Below the pieces are notes generated by a model. It worked only from the letters and a program-made list of their open reading frames with translations, ran no database searches and was not told the origin of the DNA. Below, piece by piece: positions 9,549 through 45,860 of a stretch of DNA of 50,026 nucleotides. Each line of letters starts with the position of its first letter. Position 1 is the first letter of the stretch. The stretch lies in the NCBI GenBank assembly GCA_003153435.1, contig PLYR01000040.1, forward strand, positions 1 through 50,026, in the 5' to 3' direction. The DNA is from Bacteroidota bacterium. Its GTDB lineage: Bacteria; Bacteroidota; Bacteroidia; Palsa-965. Position numbers and translations under genes: made by a program.

Positions 9549-12500
9549 CTAGTGAAGGATCAATTTTTGGGTCACACTGCCTTGGTTTAAAACCATTTGT
9601 ATAAGATACAATCCTTTAGGATAGGAGGATAGGTCGACCGTTTTGCTGAGGGTACCGTTAATCAGATCCATCTTTTCAGAATACACCGTTTCTCCAACCA
9701 GATTCACAATCCTGAACTCCATGGGCTGAGACTCAACAGATTGAATATTGAGATTCACCAGTCCACTGCTTGGATTCGGGAAGAAAGTGAGCTTGGTATT
9801 TCCCTGATCATACACCAGAATACCCATGGTGTGATTGATAGAGACGCTGTCGCAGGTCATACAACCGCTAACATCTGTGATGCAGACATAGTATATTCCT
9901 ACACTAAGTCCGGTAGCATTCTGAGTGGTCTGAGAAGGACTGGTAGACCAGCTGTATGTATAAGGAGCTGTTCCACCGGAGGCATATATTTTGGCCGTTC
10001 CATCGGAGCAAGAACCGCAGCTTACCGGAGTTTGGGTAAGGCTGTCCGTAACAAGCGCCACAGGAGTCAGAACGGTACCGGATGCAAAGGTGATACAACC
10101 CGATGAATCGGTAACCATGACCTTATAAAGCCCAGGGGTAAGACCAGTAGCCGTAGCAGCAGTCTGTACCGGGGTGGTATTCCAGGAGTAATTAAAAGTT
10201 GGTGTCCCTCCAGCCATCGTTACGGTAGCCATACCGTTGTTCATGCCTACGCAGCCGCTATTCGATGTCACTGTGGCTATTCCAGCATTGGAATTGCCAA
10301 CATCCACCGTATCAATAACACTGCATCCGTTGGCGTCGGTAGCGTAAACCATATAAACTCCTGCCGGAATATTGGAATTGGTGGCTGTAACCGCACCATT
10401 GGGTGTCCAGAGGAAGCTGAACAAACCAATTCCACCGCTGTTTATGGTAATGGTGGCGGAGCCATCTGAATTTCCACAGGTAGCTTGAGTAAGGGTGGTA
10501 GTGGTTAAGATCTGAGCAGGAGTTGTAATTATGGCGAGGCCATTGATCATACAGGCATTGCTGTCAGTCACAGTCACTGAATAAGTACCGGGTGCAAGAT
10601 TGCTTACGGTCTGGGTATTTTGTAAAGGGCTGGTATTCCAGCTGTACATAAAAGGAGCTGTTCCTCCGGAAGCAGTGCCGGTAGCGGTACCATCTGTGTT
10701 TCCGAAGCAGGTGGTGTTGGTATGGGTTACAGATACTGCAAGAACTGCCGGTTGAGTAACCGTAACAACTGCAGGGGTCGTGCAACCCAGAGAGTCAGTA
10801 ACGGTTACCGTATAAGCGCCTGCGGCCAGACCGGTTGCAGTGCCGGTTGTTTGTGCCGGTGTGGTCGACCAGGAATAGGTGTAGTGGGGAGAACCACCAG
10901 CAGCGGTGACCATGGCAGATCCATTCGCATTTCCGTTACACAGGGGCATCATCATAGAAGTCGTCGCGGTAAGTGCTGGAGGAGAAGTAACAATCACACT
11001 TGCCGGAGTCGTACAACCTGCAGCGTCGGTTACTACTACAGAATAAGTTCCAGGCATAAGGCCTGTGGCCGTGGAGGTCGACTGGGTAGGAATAGTTGCC
11101 CAGGAATATGTATATGGTGGTGTTCCTCCGGTCAAGGTAATCGTTGCGGTTCCGTTACTGGAAGTGAAGCAGGTTGCCCTTGATGAAGATACAGTTGCTA
11201 CCGCACTTGAATTGTTGTTTACGGTTGCTGTGGCTGCAGTACTGCAGCCATTGGCATCTGTAATGGTACAGATATATACGCCCGCAGCAATAGCTGTTGC
11301 TGTGGAGGTCGACTGGGAAGGTGTGGTGTTCCAGGAATAGGTATAAGCTCCGGTTCCCCCTGTCACCGTAGCTGTTGCCGAACCGGTCGCACTTCCGCAG
11401 GTAGAGTTGGTGGATGATGTGTTGGTCGCAAATGCGGCAGGTTGTGTGATCGTGGCAACCTGTGTGGTCATGCAATGGTTGGTATCCATCACACTTACCG
11501 TATAGGTTCCTGCGGCAAGGCCACTCGCAATAAAGGTAGTCTGAGCCGGAGTACTGTTCCAAGAGTAGGTATAAGGCGCCACACCTCCGCTGACTGATGC
11601 ATTCACAGAGCCATTTCCTCCGGAAGGGCAGCTTTCATTCTGCGGGGTACAGACTACCGCGAGGGCAGCCGGCTGAGTAATAATGGAGATTGCACTGGCA
11701 CTGCATCCTGCGGAGTCAGTAACCGTTGCGGTGTAACTACCTGCAGCCAGATTGCTGGCAGTAGCAGTATTTTGCACCGGTGTGGTGTTCCATGAATAGG
11801 TGAAAGGAAGCGTTCCGTTGGAAATATTTACGGTGGCGGTTCCAGTGGTTGCACCGTTACACATCAGGTTTGTATGAAAAGAAGTAGCGGTGATTGCATT
11901 CTTGATAATATTCACCGTGGAGGCTGCCGTACAATTTGCAGAATCGGTTACGGTAACTGTATAGGACCCCGGTGCAAGATTGCTGGCAGTAGCAGTGGTT
12001 TGAGAAGGAGTAGAAGACCAGGAATACGTGTAATGCGGCGTTCCACCGGCTACAGTCACCGTTGCTGTTCCGTTCGCCGCTGATGTGCAGTTTACATTGG
12101 TCGTGGTGGTTGTGGTGGTGAGAGCCATAGGTTGTGTAAGAGTCACATTCAAGTTGGAAGAACAGTTGTGAGTGTCTGTTACCTTAATGGTATACACTCC
12201 GGCAGGCTGGTTGGTTATAGCTGCAGTAGTCTGGGAAGGAGTGGTAGACCAAGAATACGTGTAAGGAACACTGCCTCCGGTTGCGGTTACTGTTGCACTT
12301 CCGGTGGAGGAACCAAAACAGGAAGGATTAACAGAGGTAGCCGTGAGCGTGGGGGCACCTGCATTATTTACGGTAACGGCAGAAGTCTTATTACACCCTA
12401 GGGAATCTGTAACTGTGATATTGTAGATTCCGGGACCTAGGTTAGTAGCAGTGGTAGCAGTCTGAACCGGTGTGGTTGCCCAGGAATAAGTAAGTGTGGC

Positions 12501-14963
12501 TGTTCCTCCGCTGGCATTTACGGTAGCACTTCCATCAGTATTCCCGCAATGTGCGGTAGTGGAAGAAGTTGTGAGTGTGATGGCGGTAGGTTGGGTAATG
12601 GTGACCACCTTGGTCTTAGAACATCCTTTGCTGTCAGTAATCAGAACAGAGTAGGTTCCTGCTCCTAAACCGGTAATGGTACGGATGGTCTGTGGAGGTG
12701 TTGTATTCCAGGAATACGTGTAAGGACCTGTTCCTCCAAAGCCTGTAACCGAGGCTACTCCGTTCATTCCCCCGTTGCAACTTACATTGCTTTGGGTTAC
12801 AACCCCAAAAACAATAGCAGGCTGGGAGATATTGACAACTTTGTTCAAAGTACATCCTGCCGCATCGGTGATGGTAACAGAATGAAAGCCTGCCGTCAGA
12901 TTGCTTGCTGTGGCAGTGGTTTGAGAAGGTGTTGTATTCCATGAAAAAGTGTAGCCAGGTGTTCCTCCTGCAGGGTGTGCAGTAGCCGTTGCGGTGGTGG
13001 CACCATTACAGGTTTCATTGACCTGGGTCATGGGCGAAGTAAGTGCAGTAGCAGGCTGGGTGATCCGGATGCTCGCAATCGAACTGCAGCCATTGGGTTC
13101 TGTTACCGAAACCGTATAGTTACCCGCGCTTAAGCCAGAAGCTGTGGCGGTGGTTTGTGATGGAGTTGTATTCCAGGAATAGGTATAAGGAGTGGTTCCT
13201 CCGGAGGCGGTCACAGTGGCTGTTCCCGTAGTTGTTCCGCGACAGGGGACATTGGTTGCCGTGATGGTTAGAGTAGCAGCACCTGTATTATTAATGGTGG
13301 CAGGAGCACTGCTCTTACATCCATTGGAGTCTGTTACGGTAACCTGATAAACCCCAGCTCCTAAAGTGGAAGTGGTCATTGCAGTAGTCTGGACTGGGGT
13401 GGTATTCCAGGAATAGGTATAAGGATGAACACCTCCGCTGCTAATCACTACGCTTGCTGATCCGTTGGAAGCTCCGCAGCCGGAGCTAATGGTAGAGGTG
13501 GTCAGCACGATCGCAACCGGTTGAGTAATTACTGCGCTATCTAGGAAGGTACACCCTTTGCTGTCGGTAATTAAAACGTGGTAAGTACCGGCACGGAGGC
13601 CTGTAGCTGTTTTAGTGGTTTGTGAAGGTGCGGTTGACCAGGAATACGTATAAGGAGCTGTTCCTCCTGTTGGGTTGGCTGTTGCTGTGGCTCCGGCGCC
13701 TCCGTGACATTTGTCGTTTGTATGTGTAACACTACCTCCTACAGCATTTGCAGGCTGGGTAATGGTAACGGTTTTAGTAAGACTGCATCCATGAGAATCG
13801 GTTATCATTACGGTATAAGTTCCGGCTACGAGGCCGCTCGCCATAGCTGTTGTCTGAGCGGGAACGGTGTTCCAGGAATAGGTAAAAGGTGCTGTTCCTC
13901 CAGATGGTGTGGCCGTTGCAGTTCCTGTTGCACTTCCTTTACAGGATACATTCACATGAGCCATAGCGGAGGTGAGCACTGCGGGTTGTGTGATGGTAAC
14001 GGTGAGGATAAAAGAACAACCACTTGCATCGGTCACAGAAACATAATAGTTCCCTGCAGGAAGTCCACTAACTGTTGCAGTGGTCTGAGCTGGGAAGGTA
14101 GACCAGGAATAAGTATAAGGAGCTGTTCCTCCGGTAGGCGTGATAGTAGCCGATCCGTTTGACCCTGCATTACAACTTACGTTGGTCTGTGCACTGATGG
14201 TAGCAGTCATGCCACTGGTATTGCCGATGGTGGCCACAGAAGATTTTTGACATCCGTTAGAATCGGTGACTGTGACGGTAAAAGAACCTGAAGGAAGGTT
14301 TGTTAGGCCGGGAGTGGTATTCACAGGGGTTGTACTCCAGGCATAGGTATGAGGCCCTGTTCCACCGGTGACCGTAACATTCGCGGTTCCCGTGGAAGCA
14401 CCACAGGTGGTATTGGTAGTGCTCATAGTAAGGTTAAGAGCAGTAGGTTGGGTAATGGTCACTACTGCTGAAATCAGACAACCTTTACGGTCGGTGACGA
14501 GTACGGTATAAGTTCCAGCCGTAAGGTTACGGGCGGTCTTGGTTGTTTGAGAAGGAACGGTGGACCAGCTATAGGAGTAACCAGGAGTTCCTCCGGTCAC
14601 TGTTGCAGTTGCCGTGGCTGTGGCACTGCCATTGCATTTTTCATCGACCTGGGTAGTGGTGATTGCCAGGGGTGCGGGTTGAGCCAGGGTAACCGTACCA
14701 GTAACCGAACATCCTGTTGCGTTGTTAACTTTAACGGTATAGGTGCCTGCACATAATCCGGTAGCGGTTTGTGTGGTCTGGGATGGGGTAGTACTCCAGG
14801 AATAAGTGAAAGGACCCACAGCTCCGGCCATGACTGCTTTTGCGTCTCCATCGCAGGTGCCGTGACAAGTAGGTGCGAACTGGTTGATGGTGACCGAGCA
14901 CTGACCGAAGAGGCCTGCTGAAAAGAGAATAGTCAGGATGGCGAGGTAGAGTTTTTTATTCAT
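9549..14963 (-). CDS. Giant SprB-repeat surface protein with T9SS sorting domain
   Basis: 1804 residues. A signal peptide (MNKKLYLAILTILFSAGLFG) is followed by about 22 repeats of 75-82 residues related to the SprB repeat of gliding-motility adhesins. Each reads roughly C-x-G...G-A.....GG..PYTYSW.T.P.QTT.....L.AGTYTV.VTDS.GC...V.I.QP, with two cysteines per repeat. The last 85 residues are a T9SS type A sorting domain (LTFFPNPSSGLVNLNIQS; KGLYLIQMVL; QKLILH). The protein should be exported by Sec, then moved across the outer membrane by T9SS and attached or released. Repeats 3, 7, 11, 16 and 20 share a distinct variant with a different linker, so the array has a higher-order period. Role as adhesin or matrix protein is inferred. 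Confidence 0.92.
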   Translation of the reverse strand: MNKKLYLAILTILFSAGLFGQCSVTINQFAPTCHGTCDGDAKAVMAGAVGPFTYSWSTTPSQTTQTATGLCAGTYTVKVNNATGCSVTGTVTLAQPAPLAITTTQVDEKCNGSATATATATVTGGTPGYSYSWSTVPSQTTKTARNLTAGTYTVLVTDRKGCLISAVVTITQPTALNLTMSTTNTTCGASTGTANVTVTGGTGPHTYAWSTTPVNTTPGLTNLPSGSFTVTVTDSNGCQKSSVATIGNTSGMTATISAQTNVSCNAGSNGSATITPTGGTAPYTYSWSTFPAQTTATVSGLPAGNYYVSVTDASGCSFILTVTITQPAVLTSAMAHVNVSCKGSATGTATATPSGGTAPFTYSWNTVPAQTTAMASGLVAGTYTVMITDSHGCSLTKTVTITQPANAVGGSVTHTNDKCHGGAGATATANPTGGTAPYTYSWSTAPSQTTKTATGLRAGTYHVLITDSKGCTFLDSAVITQPVAIVLTTSTISSGCGASNGSASVVISSGGVHPYTYSWNTTPVQTTAMTTSTLGAGVYQVTVTDSNGCKSSAPATINNTGAATLTITATNVPCRGTTTGTATVTASGGTTPYTYSWNTTPSQTTATASGLSAGNYTVSVTEPNGCSSIASIRITQPATALTSPMTQVNETCNGATTATATAHPAGGTPGYTFSWNTTPSQTTATASNLTAGFHSVTITDAAGCTLNKVVNISQPAIVFGVVTQSNVSCNGGMNGVASVTGFGGTGPYTYSWNTTPPQTIRTITGLGAGTYSVLITDSKGCSKTKVVTITQPTAITLTTSSTTAHCGNTDGSATVNASGGTATLTYSWATTPVQTATTATNLGPGIYNITVTDSLGCNKTSAVTVNNAGAPTLTATSVNPSCFGSSTGSATVTATGGSVPYTYSWSTTPSQTTAAITNQPAGVYTIKVTDTHNCSSNLNVTLTQPMALTTTTTTTNVNCTSAANGTATVTVAGGTPHYTYSWSSTPSQTTATASNLAPGSYTVTVTDSANCTAASTVNIIKNAITATSFHTNLMCNGATTGTATVNISNGTLPFTYSWNTTPVQNTATASNLAAGSYTATVTDSAGCSASAISIITQPAALAVVCTPQNESCPSGGNGSVNASVSGGVAPYTYSWNSTPAQTTFIASGLAAGTYTVSVMDTNHCMTTQVATITQPAAFATNTSSTNSTCGSATGSATATVTGGTGAYTYSWNTTPSQSTSTATAIAAGVYICTITDANGCSTAATATVNNNSSAVATVSSSRATCFTSSNGTATITLTGGTPPYTYSWATIPTQSTSTATGLMPGTYSVVVTDAAGCTTPASVIVTSPPALTATTSMMMPLCNGNANGSAMVTAAGGSPHYTYSWSTTPAQTTGTATGLAAGAYTVTVTDSLGCTTPAVVTVTQPAVLAVSVTHTNTTCFGNTDGTATGTASGGTAPFMYSWNTSPLQNTQTVSNLAPGTYSVTVTDSNACMINGLAIITTPAQILTTTTLTQATCGNSDGSATITINSGGIGLFSFLWTPNGAVTATNSNIPAGVYMVYATDANGCSVIDTVDVGNSNAGIATVTSNSGCVGMNNGMATVTMAGGTPTFNYSWNTTPVQTAATATGLTPGLYKVMVTDSSGCITFASGTVLTPVALVTDSLTQTPVSCGSCSDGTAKIYASGGTAPYTYSWSTSPSQTTQNATGLSVGIYYVCITDVSGCMTCDSVSINHTMGILVYDQGNTKLTFFPNPSSGLVNLNIQSVESQPMEFRIVNLVGETVYSEKMDLINGTLSKTVDLSSYPKGLYLIQMVLNQGSVTQKLILH

Positions 14964-31506: not shown

Positions 31507-32013
31507 TTAATGGTTTAAAAGAATCAGAATGAGAAGAACAATCAAAAGTAATATTCCGATCAATCCTTTCGGGCTCCTTCTCACATTTATTTTAGCGTCT
31601 TCTATTTTAACAACGGAGTCCTGCATTTCTAGAAGCAATTCTTTAACCTTTGGGAAAGTACTCTCATTTTTAACAAGGTATTCATAAGCACCGTTTTTAA
31701 CAAATTCCATGGCTGTTTCAACACTTTCGCTGGCCGAGATAATGACCACCTGTGTTTCAGGACTTCGGGTGTGTATTCGTTGAAGGACCTGAAGCCCATC
31801 CCATGCGAATGGAAATTCGGAGTCCATGCGATAATCAAGCAGGATCATGTCCGGCATTTTATGAAATTCTTTCAGGCAGGATTCTCCATTCTGGAAAGAG
31901 CGAAAACGGATGTCCGGAAATTCAGCCTTGAGATAGTTGTCCAGAGCCGTTACAAACATCGGATCGTCGTCTACTATGTAGACAAGCAGTCCACTCTCGT
32001 TCATGACTTTCAT
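31507..32013 (-). CDS. Receiver domain with C-terminal membrane anchor (first of a pair)
   Basis: 168 residues; ATG at 32004 (fourth codon) is an alternative start. Receiver domain 8-128 with VYIVDDDP, phospho-acceptor Asp60 in MILLDYRMDS, Ser in VVIISAS and Lys in YLVKNES, so it looks competent. After a short basic linker (NVRRSPKG) the protein ends in about 17 hydrophobic residues (LIGILLLIVLLILILL) followed only by NH. This is the architecture of a tail-anchored protein with the receiver in the cytoplasm. I know no described family of this kind. The next gene upstream (32025) has the same layout, but the two receivers differ widely, including a 4-5 residue insertion after Asp60 here. Confidence 0.87.
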   Translation of the reverse strand: MKVMNESGLLVYIVDDDPMFVTALDNYLKAEFPDIRFRSFQNGESCLKEFHKMPDMILLDYRMDSEFPFAWDGLQVLQRIHTRSPETQVVIISASESVETAMEFVKNGAYEYLVKNESTFPKVKELLLEMQDSVVKIEDAKINVRRSPKGLIGILLLIVLLILILLNH

Positions 32014-32024
32014 AATCCTAGTTT

Positions 32025-32537
32025 TTAGTGTTCAATGATGACCGCGAGGAGGATCCCTGCAATCAGTACCACGAAACAAACAATAGCGAGTATTAACGGC
32101 GATACCTTCTTCCTCAGCGCTACTCCAACCATATTTTCGCCCCCCTCTTTCTTTTCCCGGATTACTTTTTCAATCAGAAATCTTACATTTTGAACGGAAC
32201 CTTCTTCTTTTAACATATACTGCAGAACACCTTCTTTATTAAATATACGAGCGGTTTCCCGGTCATAATGCCCGGTAAGAATAATAACCGGTATTTCAGG
32301 CTTGATTAGCTTTATCCTTCTGTAGGTTTCCAACCCGTTTATTCCCGGAAGCGCAAAATCCAGAATAATCATATCCGGATTCAGGTGGAGGCTTCGGATG
32401 CATTCTTCCCCATTTTCAAACCGAACGGTTCGAAGTGCGTAATCATCGCTGAGAATATAATCGAGCATGAACGAATACATTTCATTATCCTCTACAATAA
32501 AGACCAACCACTGCAGATGAGGAGGATGTTCTTTCAC
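32025..32537 (-). CDS. Receiver domain with C-terminal membrane anchor (second of a pair)
   Basis: 170 residues. Receiver domain 8-132 with VFIVEDNE, phospho-acceptor Asp60 in MIILDFALPGING, Thr in VIILTG and Lys in YMLKEEGS. Basic linker (VALRKKVSP), then a single C-terminal helix of about 21 residues (LILAIVCFVVLIAGILLAVII) and the end EH. Tail-anchored layout as in the gene 11 bases downstream. Either membrane recruitment of a partner on phosphorylation or sequestration of kinases is conceivable; the sequence does not decide. No DNA-binding or enzymatic domain. Confidence 0.87.
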   Translation of the reverse strand: MKEHPPHLQWLVFIVEDNEMYSFMLDYILSDDYALRTVRFENGEECIRSLHLNPDMIILDFALPGINGLETYRRIKLIKPEIPVIILTGHYDRETARIFNKEGVLQYMLKEEGSVQNVRFLIEKVIREKKEGGENMVGVALRKKVSPLILAIVCFVVLIAGILLAVIIEH

Positions 32538-33533: not shown

Positions 33534-35180
33534 TTATTTTAATATAGAAGGGTTCAGAATATTAAAAACATAATTCTTTTCGGCATGCTCCCGGAGCAGC
33601 TCTAACCGGCCATTGGGTTTAAGCTGTTTTAGCTCATATAAGTCCAATCTGCGGTCGAGCATGTTATGAACGCTTCCATGAAGACGCACCTTTTTAAGTA
33701 AATCAAGTTCTAAGTCAGCAATCAATACCGTTTCTGTATTCGGGGTTGCCTCCGCCTTAATTCCATTGGTGGGAAACGCAAAATCACAAGGAGTGAAAAC
33801 AGCGGATTGGGCGTACTGAATATCCATGTTATGGACCTTTGGTAAATTGCCCACGCCTCCTGCAATACAAACAAAGCATTCATTTTCTATGGCTCTGGCC
33901 TGTGCACAACATTTAACTCTGGTGAAAGCATTTTGGGTATCTGTTAAGAAGGGTACAAACAGTATATCCATCCCTTGCATGGCAAGTAACCGTGATAATT
34001 CGGGGAATTCCACATCATAGCAGACCAGGATCCCAATCCGTCCGGCGTCTGTTTCAAGCACTTGCAGCTTATTGCCTCCTACGATCCCCCAGGTATTCAC
34101 TTCATTTGGGGTCACATGAATCTTGGAATATCGCTCTATAGAGCCATCTCTGCGGCACAAATATCCAACATTGTATAACTGTCCTTTTCTGATAAAAGGC
34201 ATGCTGCCTGTAATGATATTGACGTTGTAGGTGATCGCGTAATCAATAAATTTATCCCGTAACAGTTCGGTATAACCGGCCAGGCTTCGAATGGCTTCGG
34301 CCTGAGTCAGATGATTGAATTCGGCCATTAAAGGAGCGTTAAATAGTTCCGGAAACAATACAAAATCAGCTTTGTATCCGGCAACTGAATCAATAAAAAA
34401 CTCAATCTGCTCACAAAGCATTTCAAATGTTTTAAAGGACCTCATCTGCCATTGGATCAGACCAACCCTTGCAGTTGTTTTCAAACGGGGTTCCTGCGTA
34501 TTCTTTTTCGCATACAATACATTGTTCCATTCCATCAGTGTTGCACACTCCTTTGAACCCTCATCTCCGGGCATATAATTTTGGAGTAATTTTTTGACAT
34601 GGAATTCATTGGCCAGCTGAAAGGAAAGCACCGGATCATGCAACTCTTTCATCTTCACCTTTTCTATGTATTCCTTGGGCGTCATTTTATCGGCCAGAGG
34701 AGAATATTCAGGGATGCGGCCTCCGATGATGATAGATTTGAGATTTAAACGTTCACACAATTCTTTTCTGGCATCATACAAACGGCGGGCAAGCCTTAAC
34801 CCCCGATACTTTGGATGAATGAATACTTCAATCCCATAGAGTACATCACCATGGTTCCTGTGCGTGTTAAAAGTATAATTTCCAATAATCTCCATATACG
34901 TATGATCATCCCCAAAATCTTCGTAGTTCACAATAATAGAGAGTGCCGTACCCACCACTTTCCCGTTTACCAGTACTACAAACTGCCCTCCCGGGAAAAG
35001 CTGGATCAGCCGTGTGATCTGTTCCTTGGTCCACGCAGAGCCACGCCAATCCTGATAAGCCAATTGCATGGAATCCAATAAACCGAAATAGTCAGCCACC
35101 TGAAGGGCCCTGATTTCAACTTTGCGGATGTGGCGAACACCAGCTTTGCCGGCAACCTCACCTTCTTTTTTTAAATGCAT
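33534..35180 (-). CDS. GNAT acetyltransferase / carbon-nitrogen hydrolase fusion
   Basis: 548 residues from ATG 35180. The frame is open 54 codons further, but that segment is not like the family. The N-terminal GNAT domain (about 20-185) has the acetyl-CoA-binding IEVFIHPKYRGLRLARRLYD. The C-terminal nitrilase-superfamily amidohydrolase (from about 237) has the Glu-Lys-Cys triad: FPELFN (Glu278), YSKIHVTP (Lys353) and VCYDVEFPE (Cys387). This fusion is known in several bacterial groups, but its reaction is not established. A role in acyl-amide or amino-acid metabolism is only a guess. It is divergent from the stress protein gene at 35457. Confidence 0.88.
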   Translation of the reverse strand: MHLKKEGEVAGKAGVRHIRKVEIRALQVADYFGLLDSMQLAYQDWRGSAWTKEQITRLIQLFPGGQFVVLVNGKVVGTALSIIVNYEDFGDDHTYMEIIGNYTFNTHRNHGDVLYGIEVFIHPKYRGLRLARRLYDARKELCERLNLKSIIIGGRIPEYSPLADKMTPKEYIEKVKMKELHDPVLSFQLANEFHVKKLLQNYMPGDEGSKECATLMEWNNVLYAKKNTQEPRLKTTARVGLIQWQMRSFKTFEMLCEQIEFFIDSVAGYKADFVLFPELFNAPLMAEFNHLTQAEAIRSLAGYTELLRDKFIDYAITYNVNIITGSMPFIRKGQLYNVGYLCRRDGSIERYSKIHVTPNEVNTWGIVGGNKLQVLETDAGRIGILVCYDVEFPELSRLLAMQGMDILFVPFLTDTQNAFTRVKCCAQARAIENECFVCIAGGVGNLPKVHNMDIQYAQSAVFTPCDFAFPTNGIKAEATPNTETVLIADLELDLLKKVRLHGSVHNMLDRRLDLYELKQLKPNGRLELLREHAEKNYVFNILNPSILK

Positions 35181-35368
35181 GGATGGAAGGGTTAAGTTTT
35201 GGTAAAATCCTGCTTTTCTTTTTTTACGCCAGGTCAAAGCGAAAAAGGGACTCTTTTCGCCAGCATGGTTCTTTATATAGGTAGAATGAGGAGAATGAAG
35301 GCTGAAATCAGGAAATGATGAAATTATCCTGTTTAACTGCACAGATCCCCCCTTCAGCTATTTAGAAG

Positions 35369-43544: not shown

Positions 43545-45860
43545 TTATTTAGACGAACCATTCTTTTTCTGAAGTTCAAGATTTTGTTTCTGAAGTTCTT
43601 TCAATTGCTTTTCCATTTCGATCATGTAAAGCGTCAGCTCTTCAATTTTTTGCATCATTTTTGGCATCACGGAAGAAACATTTAAGCCATTAGTTTCAAT
43701 CTCGCTTGCATTTGGAACATCCTTCAAATGGCCATGCTCCTTGATGTATTTTTCAACATTTGGCAATGTTTCTAATTTGTAGTTCTTTTCGAAGACAAAA
43801 TCGCTCCAGCCTGACTGAACAACAACTTCTTTTGCTCTGATACTCCCATTTACAGATAGTTTGTAATGAGAGTCAGGAGTAATTGTTCCCATTCCGATAT
43901 TTCCTGTTGAACCCTCAACAAAAAATGCTGGTAGATTGCCTGGGGTATTTGATGCCCAAATAGAAGTATTAATGTTACTACCATCTCCAATGTCAATTGT
44001 TGATGTAAGATTAAAAAGTTGATTCAAATGCAGGAATAAATGACCTCTTGCAACGAATTTATATTCTGCCTCTTCGATGTCAATATAATCATCGGTAAAA
44101 CTATTGCTTTGAATTCTTCTTCCTGCATCAATACCAAAATCGCCCCCAGAAAGAGTAAGTTTTGAATTGGCGTTAACAGTTCCAATGCCAATGTTCCCGT
44201 TTGGTTTTAGCCACATTGAAGAAGAACTATTTGCTTCCAAAATAAAATCGTTATTATCACATGTACCAATTACTGCATTTGCGATATTATTGTTGGGAGG
44301 AAGCCCCAAAAGATTTCCCCCAAGTGTCCAAGCAGGTTGCGTTGGATCGCAAGGAGTTACAACAGGATTGATACCTACACCAGAGCCGTAGGAGATGCGA
44401 TTAGTTTTAATGTTTCCAAGAGAGTCGACATATAAAGTTCCAATACCCGAACCTGCTAATGATGCTATTTTAGCGTTTCCAATAATTGAAGTATTTCCCT
44501 GAACTCTTAAGTCGCCAGCGGAATTCAAATTTCCACTACTATGAATATCCCCTAAAACGTCAAGCTTGTAGGCTGGATTGGACAATCCGATTCCAAGATT
44601 CCCGGCAACAGTTGCAGAGCCAGAAAATGAAGCTGCCCCGGCAACTGACAAACGATTATTCAAAATCAAATTGTCCCCATTTACGACAACAGTGCCACCT
44701 ATAGTGATGCCTCCTCCAACCTTCAAATCTCCCGCGAGATCGAAACCGTGCAATGGAGTAGAATTTCCAACTCCAATCAAGCCGGCACTCGTCACCCTCA
44801 ACCGCTCGACATTATTTGTTTTGATGACAAAATCCTGTCCATCCGTTGTTCCTATGAAATTTGTAGCTGGATTCGTTCCGGTAGATCCCATCAAACCCCA
44901 GGCATCAGCACTACCCGGTGCTCCCTGAGCTCCGGTTGCACCAGTAGGTCCTGTCAAACCAATAGGACCTTGTGCTCCGGTTGCACCAGTCGCTCCAGCA
45001 GCACCCGTTGCTCCTGTCGCACCGGTAGCTCCTGTCAAGCCAATAGGACCTTGAGCTCCCGTTGCGCCGGTTGCACCTGTGGCTCCAACAGCACCAGTTG
45101 CTCCAGTTGCACCAACAGCACCTGTCACACCAGTAGCTCCCACAGCACCCGTTGCACCGGTTGGACCAGCAGGTCCCGTTGCTCCTGTAGCACCCGTTGC
45201 TCCTGTTGGACCGGCAGGACCTGTCGCACCTGTTGGTCCTGCTGGACCTTGAGGACCGGCAGGGCCCGGAGGACCTGTTTTATTAGCTTGTATTTCTAAG
45301 TTGTCAATTCTCAAAGTTCCAGTACCACTGGCTCCGGAAGCAGCTAACCTGAAATAAACGGCAGCATTGTAATTTAAGGCACTTATTGAACTTAAATCGA
45401 AAACTTGTTCCACATAACTTCCGTTGCCTGGAGACAGGGTTGTACCGAAATTAGTATACGTTGATCCGTCAGTACTATACTGTAAGGTAACAGTTGTCGC
45501 TCCTGTATTGCTTCTTTGAGCCTGCACATACAATTTGAAGCTTTTATAACTGGATAGATCTGACCCTCCCATGGTGAGGGTCCAGTACTTTGTGTTGGTA
45601 CCACTGCTATTTGAAAAGGCAATGCCGTTTCCGGCAGTGCTATTAGAGGTGAAAGCAGAACCTCCACTTGCAATACCCTCATATTCCACGAAATTCTCCG
45701 TGCTTGTGAGTGAGGCCGTAATATTACTTGCAGCAACATCTGCCGGAAAAGGATAAGAAGATCCTGATCCATTAAAGTTGTGCTGACTGATGGTCGCCAC
45801 CTGTGCGTTCACTTGCAAAGCCAGAGAGGCCACAATGAATAAGAAGAGTAATTTTTTCAT
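43545..45860 (-). CDS. Secreted collagen-like fibre protein
   Basis: 771 residues. Signal peptide ([19 protein letters not shown]), an N-terminal beta-sandwich (about 25-194), then 41 uninterrupted Gly-X-Y triplets (196-317; mostly G-A-T), which should form a collagen-like triple helix. A beta-rich shaft of repeats like [19 protein letters not shown] follows. The C terminus reads [20 protein letters not shown] and ends in a coiled coil; this head is common in Bacteroidota tail-fibre-like proteins. Trimerisation is likely. No T9SS sorting domain is visible, so its export route beyond Sec is unclear. The triplet region contains an internal duplication ([10 protein letters not shown] twice). First gene of the four-gene block. 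Confidence 0.87.

Follow-up and report, generated by a model that had tools for sequence, protein, structure and literature searches.

The window analysed here, the whole 50,026-nucleotide stretch of contig PLYR01000040.1 from a Bacteroidota bacterium (assembly GCA_003153435.1), contains two consecutive genes, A and B, separated by 11 bases, each of which encodes a receiver domain followed by a basic linker and a hydrophobic C-terminal helix (Table 1). Both are intact ORFs, of 168 aa for A (ATG start at 32013) and 170 aa for B (GTG start at 32537). Each protein gave a single Pfam match, to Response_reg, which lay above the cut-off (1.7e-19 for A, 1.8e-18 for B) and spanned profile positions 1–101 of 111. 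No AAA+ sigma-54 activator domain or Fis-type HTH was detected in either protein by Pfam, and the receiver was the only domain named by NCBIfam and Pfam together. The acceptor-site residues are present in A (acidic cluster D15–D17, D60, S93 and K115) and in B (E16/D17, D60, the Thr of 'ILTG' and K110), and across alignments of 20 to 60 relatives the acceptor Asp and the Lys hardly varied or did not vary at all. This Lys is normally followed by a Pro (K-P motif), which is missing from A, from B and from the whole subfamily. The two proteins are 35 % identical over 118 receiver residues and their tails show no clear identity. Thus, the ORFs, residues and helices bear out the first-pass annotation, which had described complete receivers that are only distantly alike while sharing the same layout. 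Recent tandem duplication was considered as the origin of the pair and rejected, as the two proteins belong to different starred clades and have separate sets of orthologues. By profile and fold, the receivers closest to A and B are of the NtrC type, the tree being poorly resolved; the nearest solved structure is the receiver of NtrC1 of Aquifex (PDB 1zy2), with NtrX (4d6y) also near.

A and B lie within a same-strand run consisting of a LytTR regulator, B, A, a 118-aa receiver, kinases of 939 and 529 aa, a 146-aa receiver and an 812-aa kinase. The 939-aa kinase keeps its D/H/D/H phospho-acceptor motifs, and no TM helix was predicted in it. This kinase is the most likely phosphate source for A and B, with the 812-aa membrane kinase as a possible second source and the LytTR regulator as the likely transcriptional branch. 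Members of the subfamily of the 118-aa receiver are found next to tail-anchored receivers in other families too, and relatives of the 529-aa kinase adjoin orthologous hybrid kinases. The N-terminus of the 529-aa protein gave a Protoglobin match of 24.8 bits, just below the Pfam cut-off of 25.0, and may mark a kinase of this run that senses gases through haem. Scans for consensus promoters and terminators gave nothing above shuffled sequences. Directly upstream of the cluster is a gene (33534–35342) whose product joins a GNAT acetyltransferase to a carbon-nitrogen hydrolase. Elsewhere in the window are a surface protein of 1804 aa (9549–14963), which carries 19 SprB repeats and a sorting tail for type IX secretion, and a 771-aa protein with collagen-like triple-helix repeats (43545–45860).

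Table 1. Genes of the two-component cluster in the window, with predicted domains
Feature	Position	Strand	Domains and remarks	Basis
Protein A	31507..32013	minus	receiver ~4-118; alpha5/basic linker 119-148; TM helix 149-167	Pfam, hydropathy, AlphaFold2
Protein B	32025..32537	minus	receiver ~8-113; alpha5/basic linker 114-146; TM helix 147-169	Pfam, hydropathy, AlphaFold2
LytTR-type response regulator, 231 aa	32717..33412	minus	first of cluster	Pfam, neighbourhood comparison
Soluble single-domain receiver, 118 aa	31137..31493	minus	K-P type	Pfam
Soluble hybrid histidine kinase, 939 aa	28241..31060	minus	REC-PAS-PAS-HisKA-HATPase-REC-Hpt	Pfam
Second soluble histidine kinase, 529 aa	26621..28210	minus	PAS	Pfam
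Soluble receiver, 146 aa	26159..26599	minus	homologues 42-47 % in orthologous clusters	Pfam
Membrane hybrid kinase, 812 aa	23636..26074	minus	HAMP-PAS-HisKA-HATPase-REC; two TM; last of run	

TM helices were called by a hydropathy rule together with AlphaFold rather than by a dedicated topology program. Kyte-Doolittle values over 17 residues peaked at 3.54 in the tail of A and 3.48 in that of B, and the corresponding biological-scale insertion sums over 19 residues were −2.7 and −5.8. AlphaFold2 models built from alignments of locus proteins gave a mean pLDDT of 93.2 (pTM 0.81) for A, with helices at 119–145 (alpha5) and 149–167, and a mean pLDDT of 90.5 for B, with helices at 114–143 and 147–169. 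The layout in both models is that of a receiver with an extended alpha5 and then a separate terminal helix. A random 45-aa tail passes the TM threshold about 5 % of the time. TM tails were found in none of 48 canonical single-domain receivers of the same loci as compared with 75 of 177 subfamily members, the latter proportion being inflated because the searches began with tailed queries. Within the genus, the receivers of the A and B orthologue trios are 50–65 % identical and their linkers and tails 24–31 %, and every tail is strongly hydrophobic despite this sequence drift.

Receivers with one C-terminal helix were sought across the Bacteroidota, and 66 distinct examples were recovered from at least 22 family codes. 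Their median insertion sum was −2.7, as against about +17 in tail-less sister receivers. The 15 residues preceding the helix had an average of 4.06 Lys and Arg, against 0.80 following it, with a higher count before than after in 64 of the 66, and the linker from receiver to helix had length quartiles of 20–24 residues. Because positive charge clusters before the helix, the receiver is predicted to be inside, in the cytoplasm. A and B have the single predicted TM helix near the C-terminus that characterizes tail-anchored proteins. Hydrophobicity that is kept while the sequence drifts, in a layout spread over so many families, supports the earlier proposal that the tail is under selection for membrane attachment; insertion of A and B themselves in the membrane is predicted from their sequences.

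Besides A and B, the home genome encodes three more tail-anchored receivers, on contigs 14, 30 and 104, for a total of five, and two of the genomes with tailed receivers belong to another class of the phylum. A search of contigs from named organisms, with an 11-row alignment as the query, gave relatives in named MAGs among the matches listed, for example in a Sporocytophaga sp. and a Flavobacteriaceae bacterium. Only two distant matches were carried on plasmids, and these were annotated as a sigma-54 regulator and a response regulator. The phylum-wide search, which for nearly all genomes was limited to the best 12 candidates in each and gives no prevalence of the tail, mostly brought in NtrC-type regulators and a soluble sister group of 144 aa. 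This sister group is large and has the C-terminus '..EKELNWYMDRM', and some other close neighbours are also tail-less. The 144-aa orthogroup (L033-L042, L073-L140) is very widespread in Bacteroidota with a strikingly conserved C-terminus, and its members nearly always adjoin a hybrid kinase or Hpt. Three receivers of the subfamily have two predicted TM helices (L014:2029-2664, L029:1435-2121 and L174:7236-7841). The same receiver subtype is fused to a histidine kinase in one 520-aa protein (REC-HisKA-HATPase, L164:6063-7625), which lies two genes away from two tail-anchored receivers, and close receivers are fused to a SpoIIE phosphatase in a few loci (REC-SpoIIE in L173). The expectation that the tail would never be missing or continue into another domain therefore held for clear orthologues, which keep it, and failed for the tail-less sisters and for the histidine kinase and SpoIIE fusions. 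This indicates that the tail is a trait of many lineages within the subfamily and not of the whole subfamily. In a poorly resolved tree of 126 columns, the tail label changed 18 times, compared with 43 in shuffles, and was strongly clustered, though not into one clade, with at least three changes forced by starred branches. This tree does not decide whether the tail arose once, and it places some NtrC-type regulators among these receivers.

Associations with phosphorelay genes were assessed for 50 distinct tail-anchored receivers flanked by three or more genes on both sides, with 101 genes of the same loci as controls. Within three genes, a histidine kinase or Hpt was present for 37 of the 50 receivers and 3 of the 101 controls (P ~1e-20). 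The corresponding proportions were 34 of 50 and 2 of 101 for Hpt alone, and 14 of 50 and 0 of 101 for a LytTR regulator. Among 395 genomes of the class, 14 had orthologues of the 939-aa kinase, 15 in all (the window's own included), which are 48–60 % identical and come from five families (f1, f6, f19, f21 and f45). A tail-anchored receiver was located within about 10 kb of 12 of the 15 orthologues; the exceptions were G003, where the kinase lies on a contig fragment and the A+B pair on another contig, a contig end in G480, and G605. No TM helix was predicted in 42 of 63 kinases near tail-anchored receivers. Linkage to a hybrid kinase or Hpt is thus conserved, as would be expected of phosphorelay components, and the connection with neighbouring kinases raised by the first-pass annotation holds statistically. 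Three observations count against the reading favoured below: 13 of the 50 receivers have no histidine kinase or Hpt within three genes; no single membrane-protein partner is conserved beside the receivers, the neighbours outside two-component systems being variable; and soluble tail-less sister receivers adjoin hybrid kinases in 64 of 70 cases, which indicates that an anchor in the membrane is not needed for the receiver to work in these relays. A second recurring cluster (L001:2283-6020, L073:9478-15450 and L190:6469-10847) contains a tailed receiver that ends in '..REFGISKY..', an AraC-like regulator ('MKLYIKYMVS..'), a hybrid kinase and a soluble 144-aa receiver. SiaC-family regulatory phosphoproteins were seen next to or near the same receivers or kinases (L167:4779-5984, L066:14625-15023, L192:12728-13105 and L213:15028-15411; PF09345 confirmed in L167 and L066) and, with the REC-SpoIIE fusion, may point to a tie with Sia-type partner switching.

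The reading that we favour, and consider more probable than not, is that A and B form the membrane-tethered end of a hybrid-kinase phosphorelay, where they accept the phosphate and control a partner in the membrane. The receiver would lie in the cytoplasm and the alpha5/linker helix would lead into the C-terminal TM helix, beyond which one or two final residues would reach the periplasm. The 939-aa kinase would autophosphorylate and pass phosphate by His-Asp-His transfer to its C-terminal Hpt, from which it would reach several receivers: the soluble 118-aa receiver and LytTR regulator, and A and B at the membrane. Transfer from this Hpt to A and B is deduced from the domains and gene order, and a membrane partner as their output is likewise a presumed step. 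Phosphorylation would alter the alpha4-beta5-alpha5 face and the extended alpha5, and the altered face could recruit, release or dimerise a partner at the membrane, so that this branch would act without DNA binding. In NtrC1, dimerisation is controlled in part by the helix that follows the receiver. The likeness of alpha5 in A and B to that helix suggests that phosphorylation may change how they dimerise or affect a surface near the membrane. A broader and more tentative proposal, to which we give somewhat less than even weight, is that these proteins represent a widespread and hitherto undescribed Bacteroidota output class of reversed topology, in which a soluble hybrid kinase signals to membrane receivers that control membrane proteins, possibly via the receivers' TM helices, and not transcription.

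Membrane insertion is a prediction, and the tail could instead be a helix that is buried or drives oligomerisation in a soluble protein, or a C-terminal run-on of no significance. This is very improbable in view of the insertion sums as compared with those of the tail-less sisters, the strong charge asymmetry, the retention of the tail in more than 60 diverged proteins and a terminal helix that is separate and confidently modelled in both proteins. It is equally hard to credit that A and B are the degraded remnants of NtrC-family regulators, left without the AAA+ and DNA-binding parts, since the acceptor residues are all intact and the tails are being retained. Their proximity to the NtrC type in profile and fold, and the NtrC-type regulators placed among their relatives, are in keeping with such a descent; however, the tree leaves the origin undecided, and an NtrC-like origin would not mean that the proteins are non-functional.

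Other alternatives concern what A and B do. They might serve as a phosphate sink on the shared Hpt or as kinase-binding inhibitors, leaving the LytTR regulator as the sole output, with tails that would merely keep them away from or near certain kinases. Several receivers are common to one Hpt in each cluster, and single-domain receivers that inhibit kinases or act as sinks have been reported elsewhere (e.g. PMC9430884, PMC12471899). Such a role is nevertheless unlikely, as a sink needs neither a conserved linker length nor a membrane anchor and many tail-anchored receivers have no second receiver nearby. An obligate A–B heterodimer at the membrane, an idea raised in the first-pass annotation, is also on the unlikely side, if slightly less so. 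The A+B pair recurs in six genomes of two families, with B orthologues 38–57 % identical; in G430, G524 and G579, which are from a different family, an A-like and a B-like protein (the latter 47 % identical to B in G430 and 38–40 % in G524 and G579), both tailed, adjoin the kinase, indicating that the combination of pair and kinase is older than the genus. However, most tail-anchored receivers are single genes. Where receivers stand in tandem in other families, they belong to other subtypes, and frequently one of the two has a tail and the other lacks it. Pairing is thus conserved for A and B in these genomes and not for tailed receivers generally.

As regards novelty, a search confined to the open-access literature gave no response regulator of this layout with a membrane or tail anchor, and the one related statement it yielded is that on the archaeal MetOD3 domain; within that literature the earlier remark that no described system of this design was known stands. 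What appears new is a single-domain receiver turned membrane protein and kept in many families beside a phosphorelay, its function being deduced from this context. Recurrence in more than 20 Bacteroidota families suggests an overlooked route by which a two-component signal could act at the membrane. Single-domain receivers are very common signalling proteins whose targets are usually hard to find, and a membrane tail narrows where the target can be, while the conserved kinase, the A+B pair and the soluble sister receivers offer ready controls. If the favoured reading is true, a membrane-localised branch would be added to multi-output phosphorelays in a phylum with poorly explored signalling.

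CheY, Spo0F, DivK and EpsW resemble A and B in that the receiver is the sole folded domain, has a complete acceptor site and acts by protein contact, as is proposed for A and B; these four are soluble, whereas A and B end in a conserved TM helix. In a single-domain regulator nothing follows the receiver, and by this definition the C-terminal helix places A and B outside the class. Soluble EpsW of Myxococcus binds and activates the membrane glycosyl transferase EpsZ (PMC12802240), an output analogous to the control of a membrane partner proposed here. In NtrC1 and NtrX a helix runs on from alpha5, as it does in A and B, but NtrC-family proteins continue with AAA+ sigma-54 and Fis-type DNA-binding domains where A and B have a membrane helix. 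The MetOD3-REC-MetOD2 regulators of Methanoregula are response regulators reported to have a membrane-anchored domain (PMC5847659), but MetOD3 is a 180-aa N-terminal domain, known from four members and archaeal, and the layout is unrelated. Bacterial tail-anchored proteins share with A and B one C-terminal TM helix near the protein end; the examples validated in PMC10924467 are inserted by the Tat system, an exporter of folded proteins, whereas the charge bias of A and B predicts that the receiver stays inside. The relays of ArcB, TorS and BarA, with HisKA-HATPase-REC-Hpt, have the same architecture as the 939-aa kinase. However, the textbook relay runs the other way, from a membrane sensor kinase to soluble receivers, while here the kinase is predicted to be soluble and the receivers to be in the membrane.
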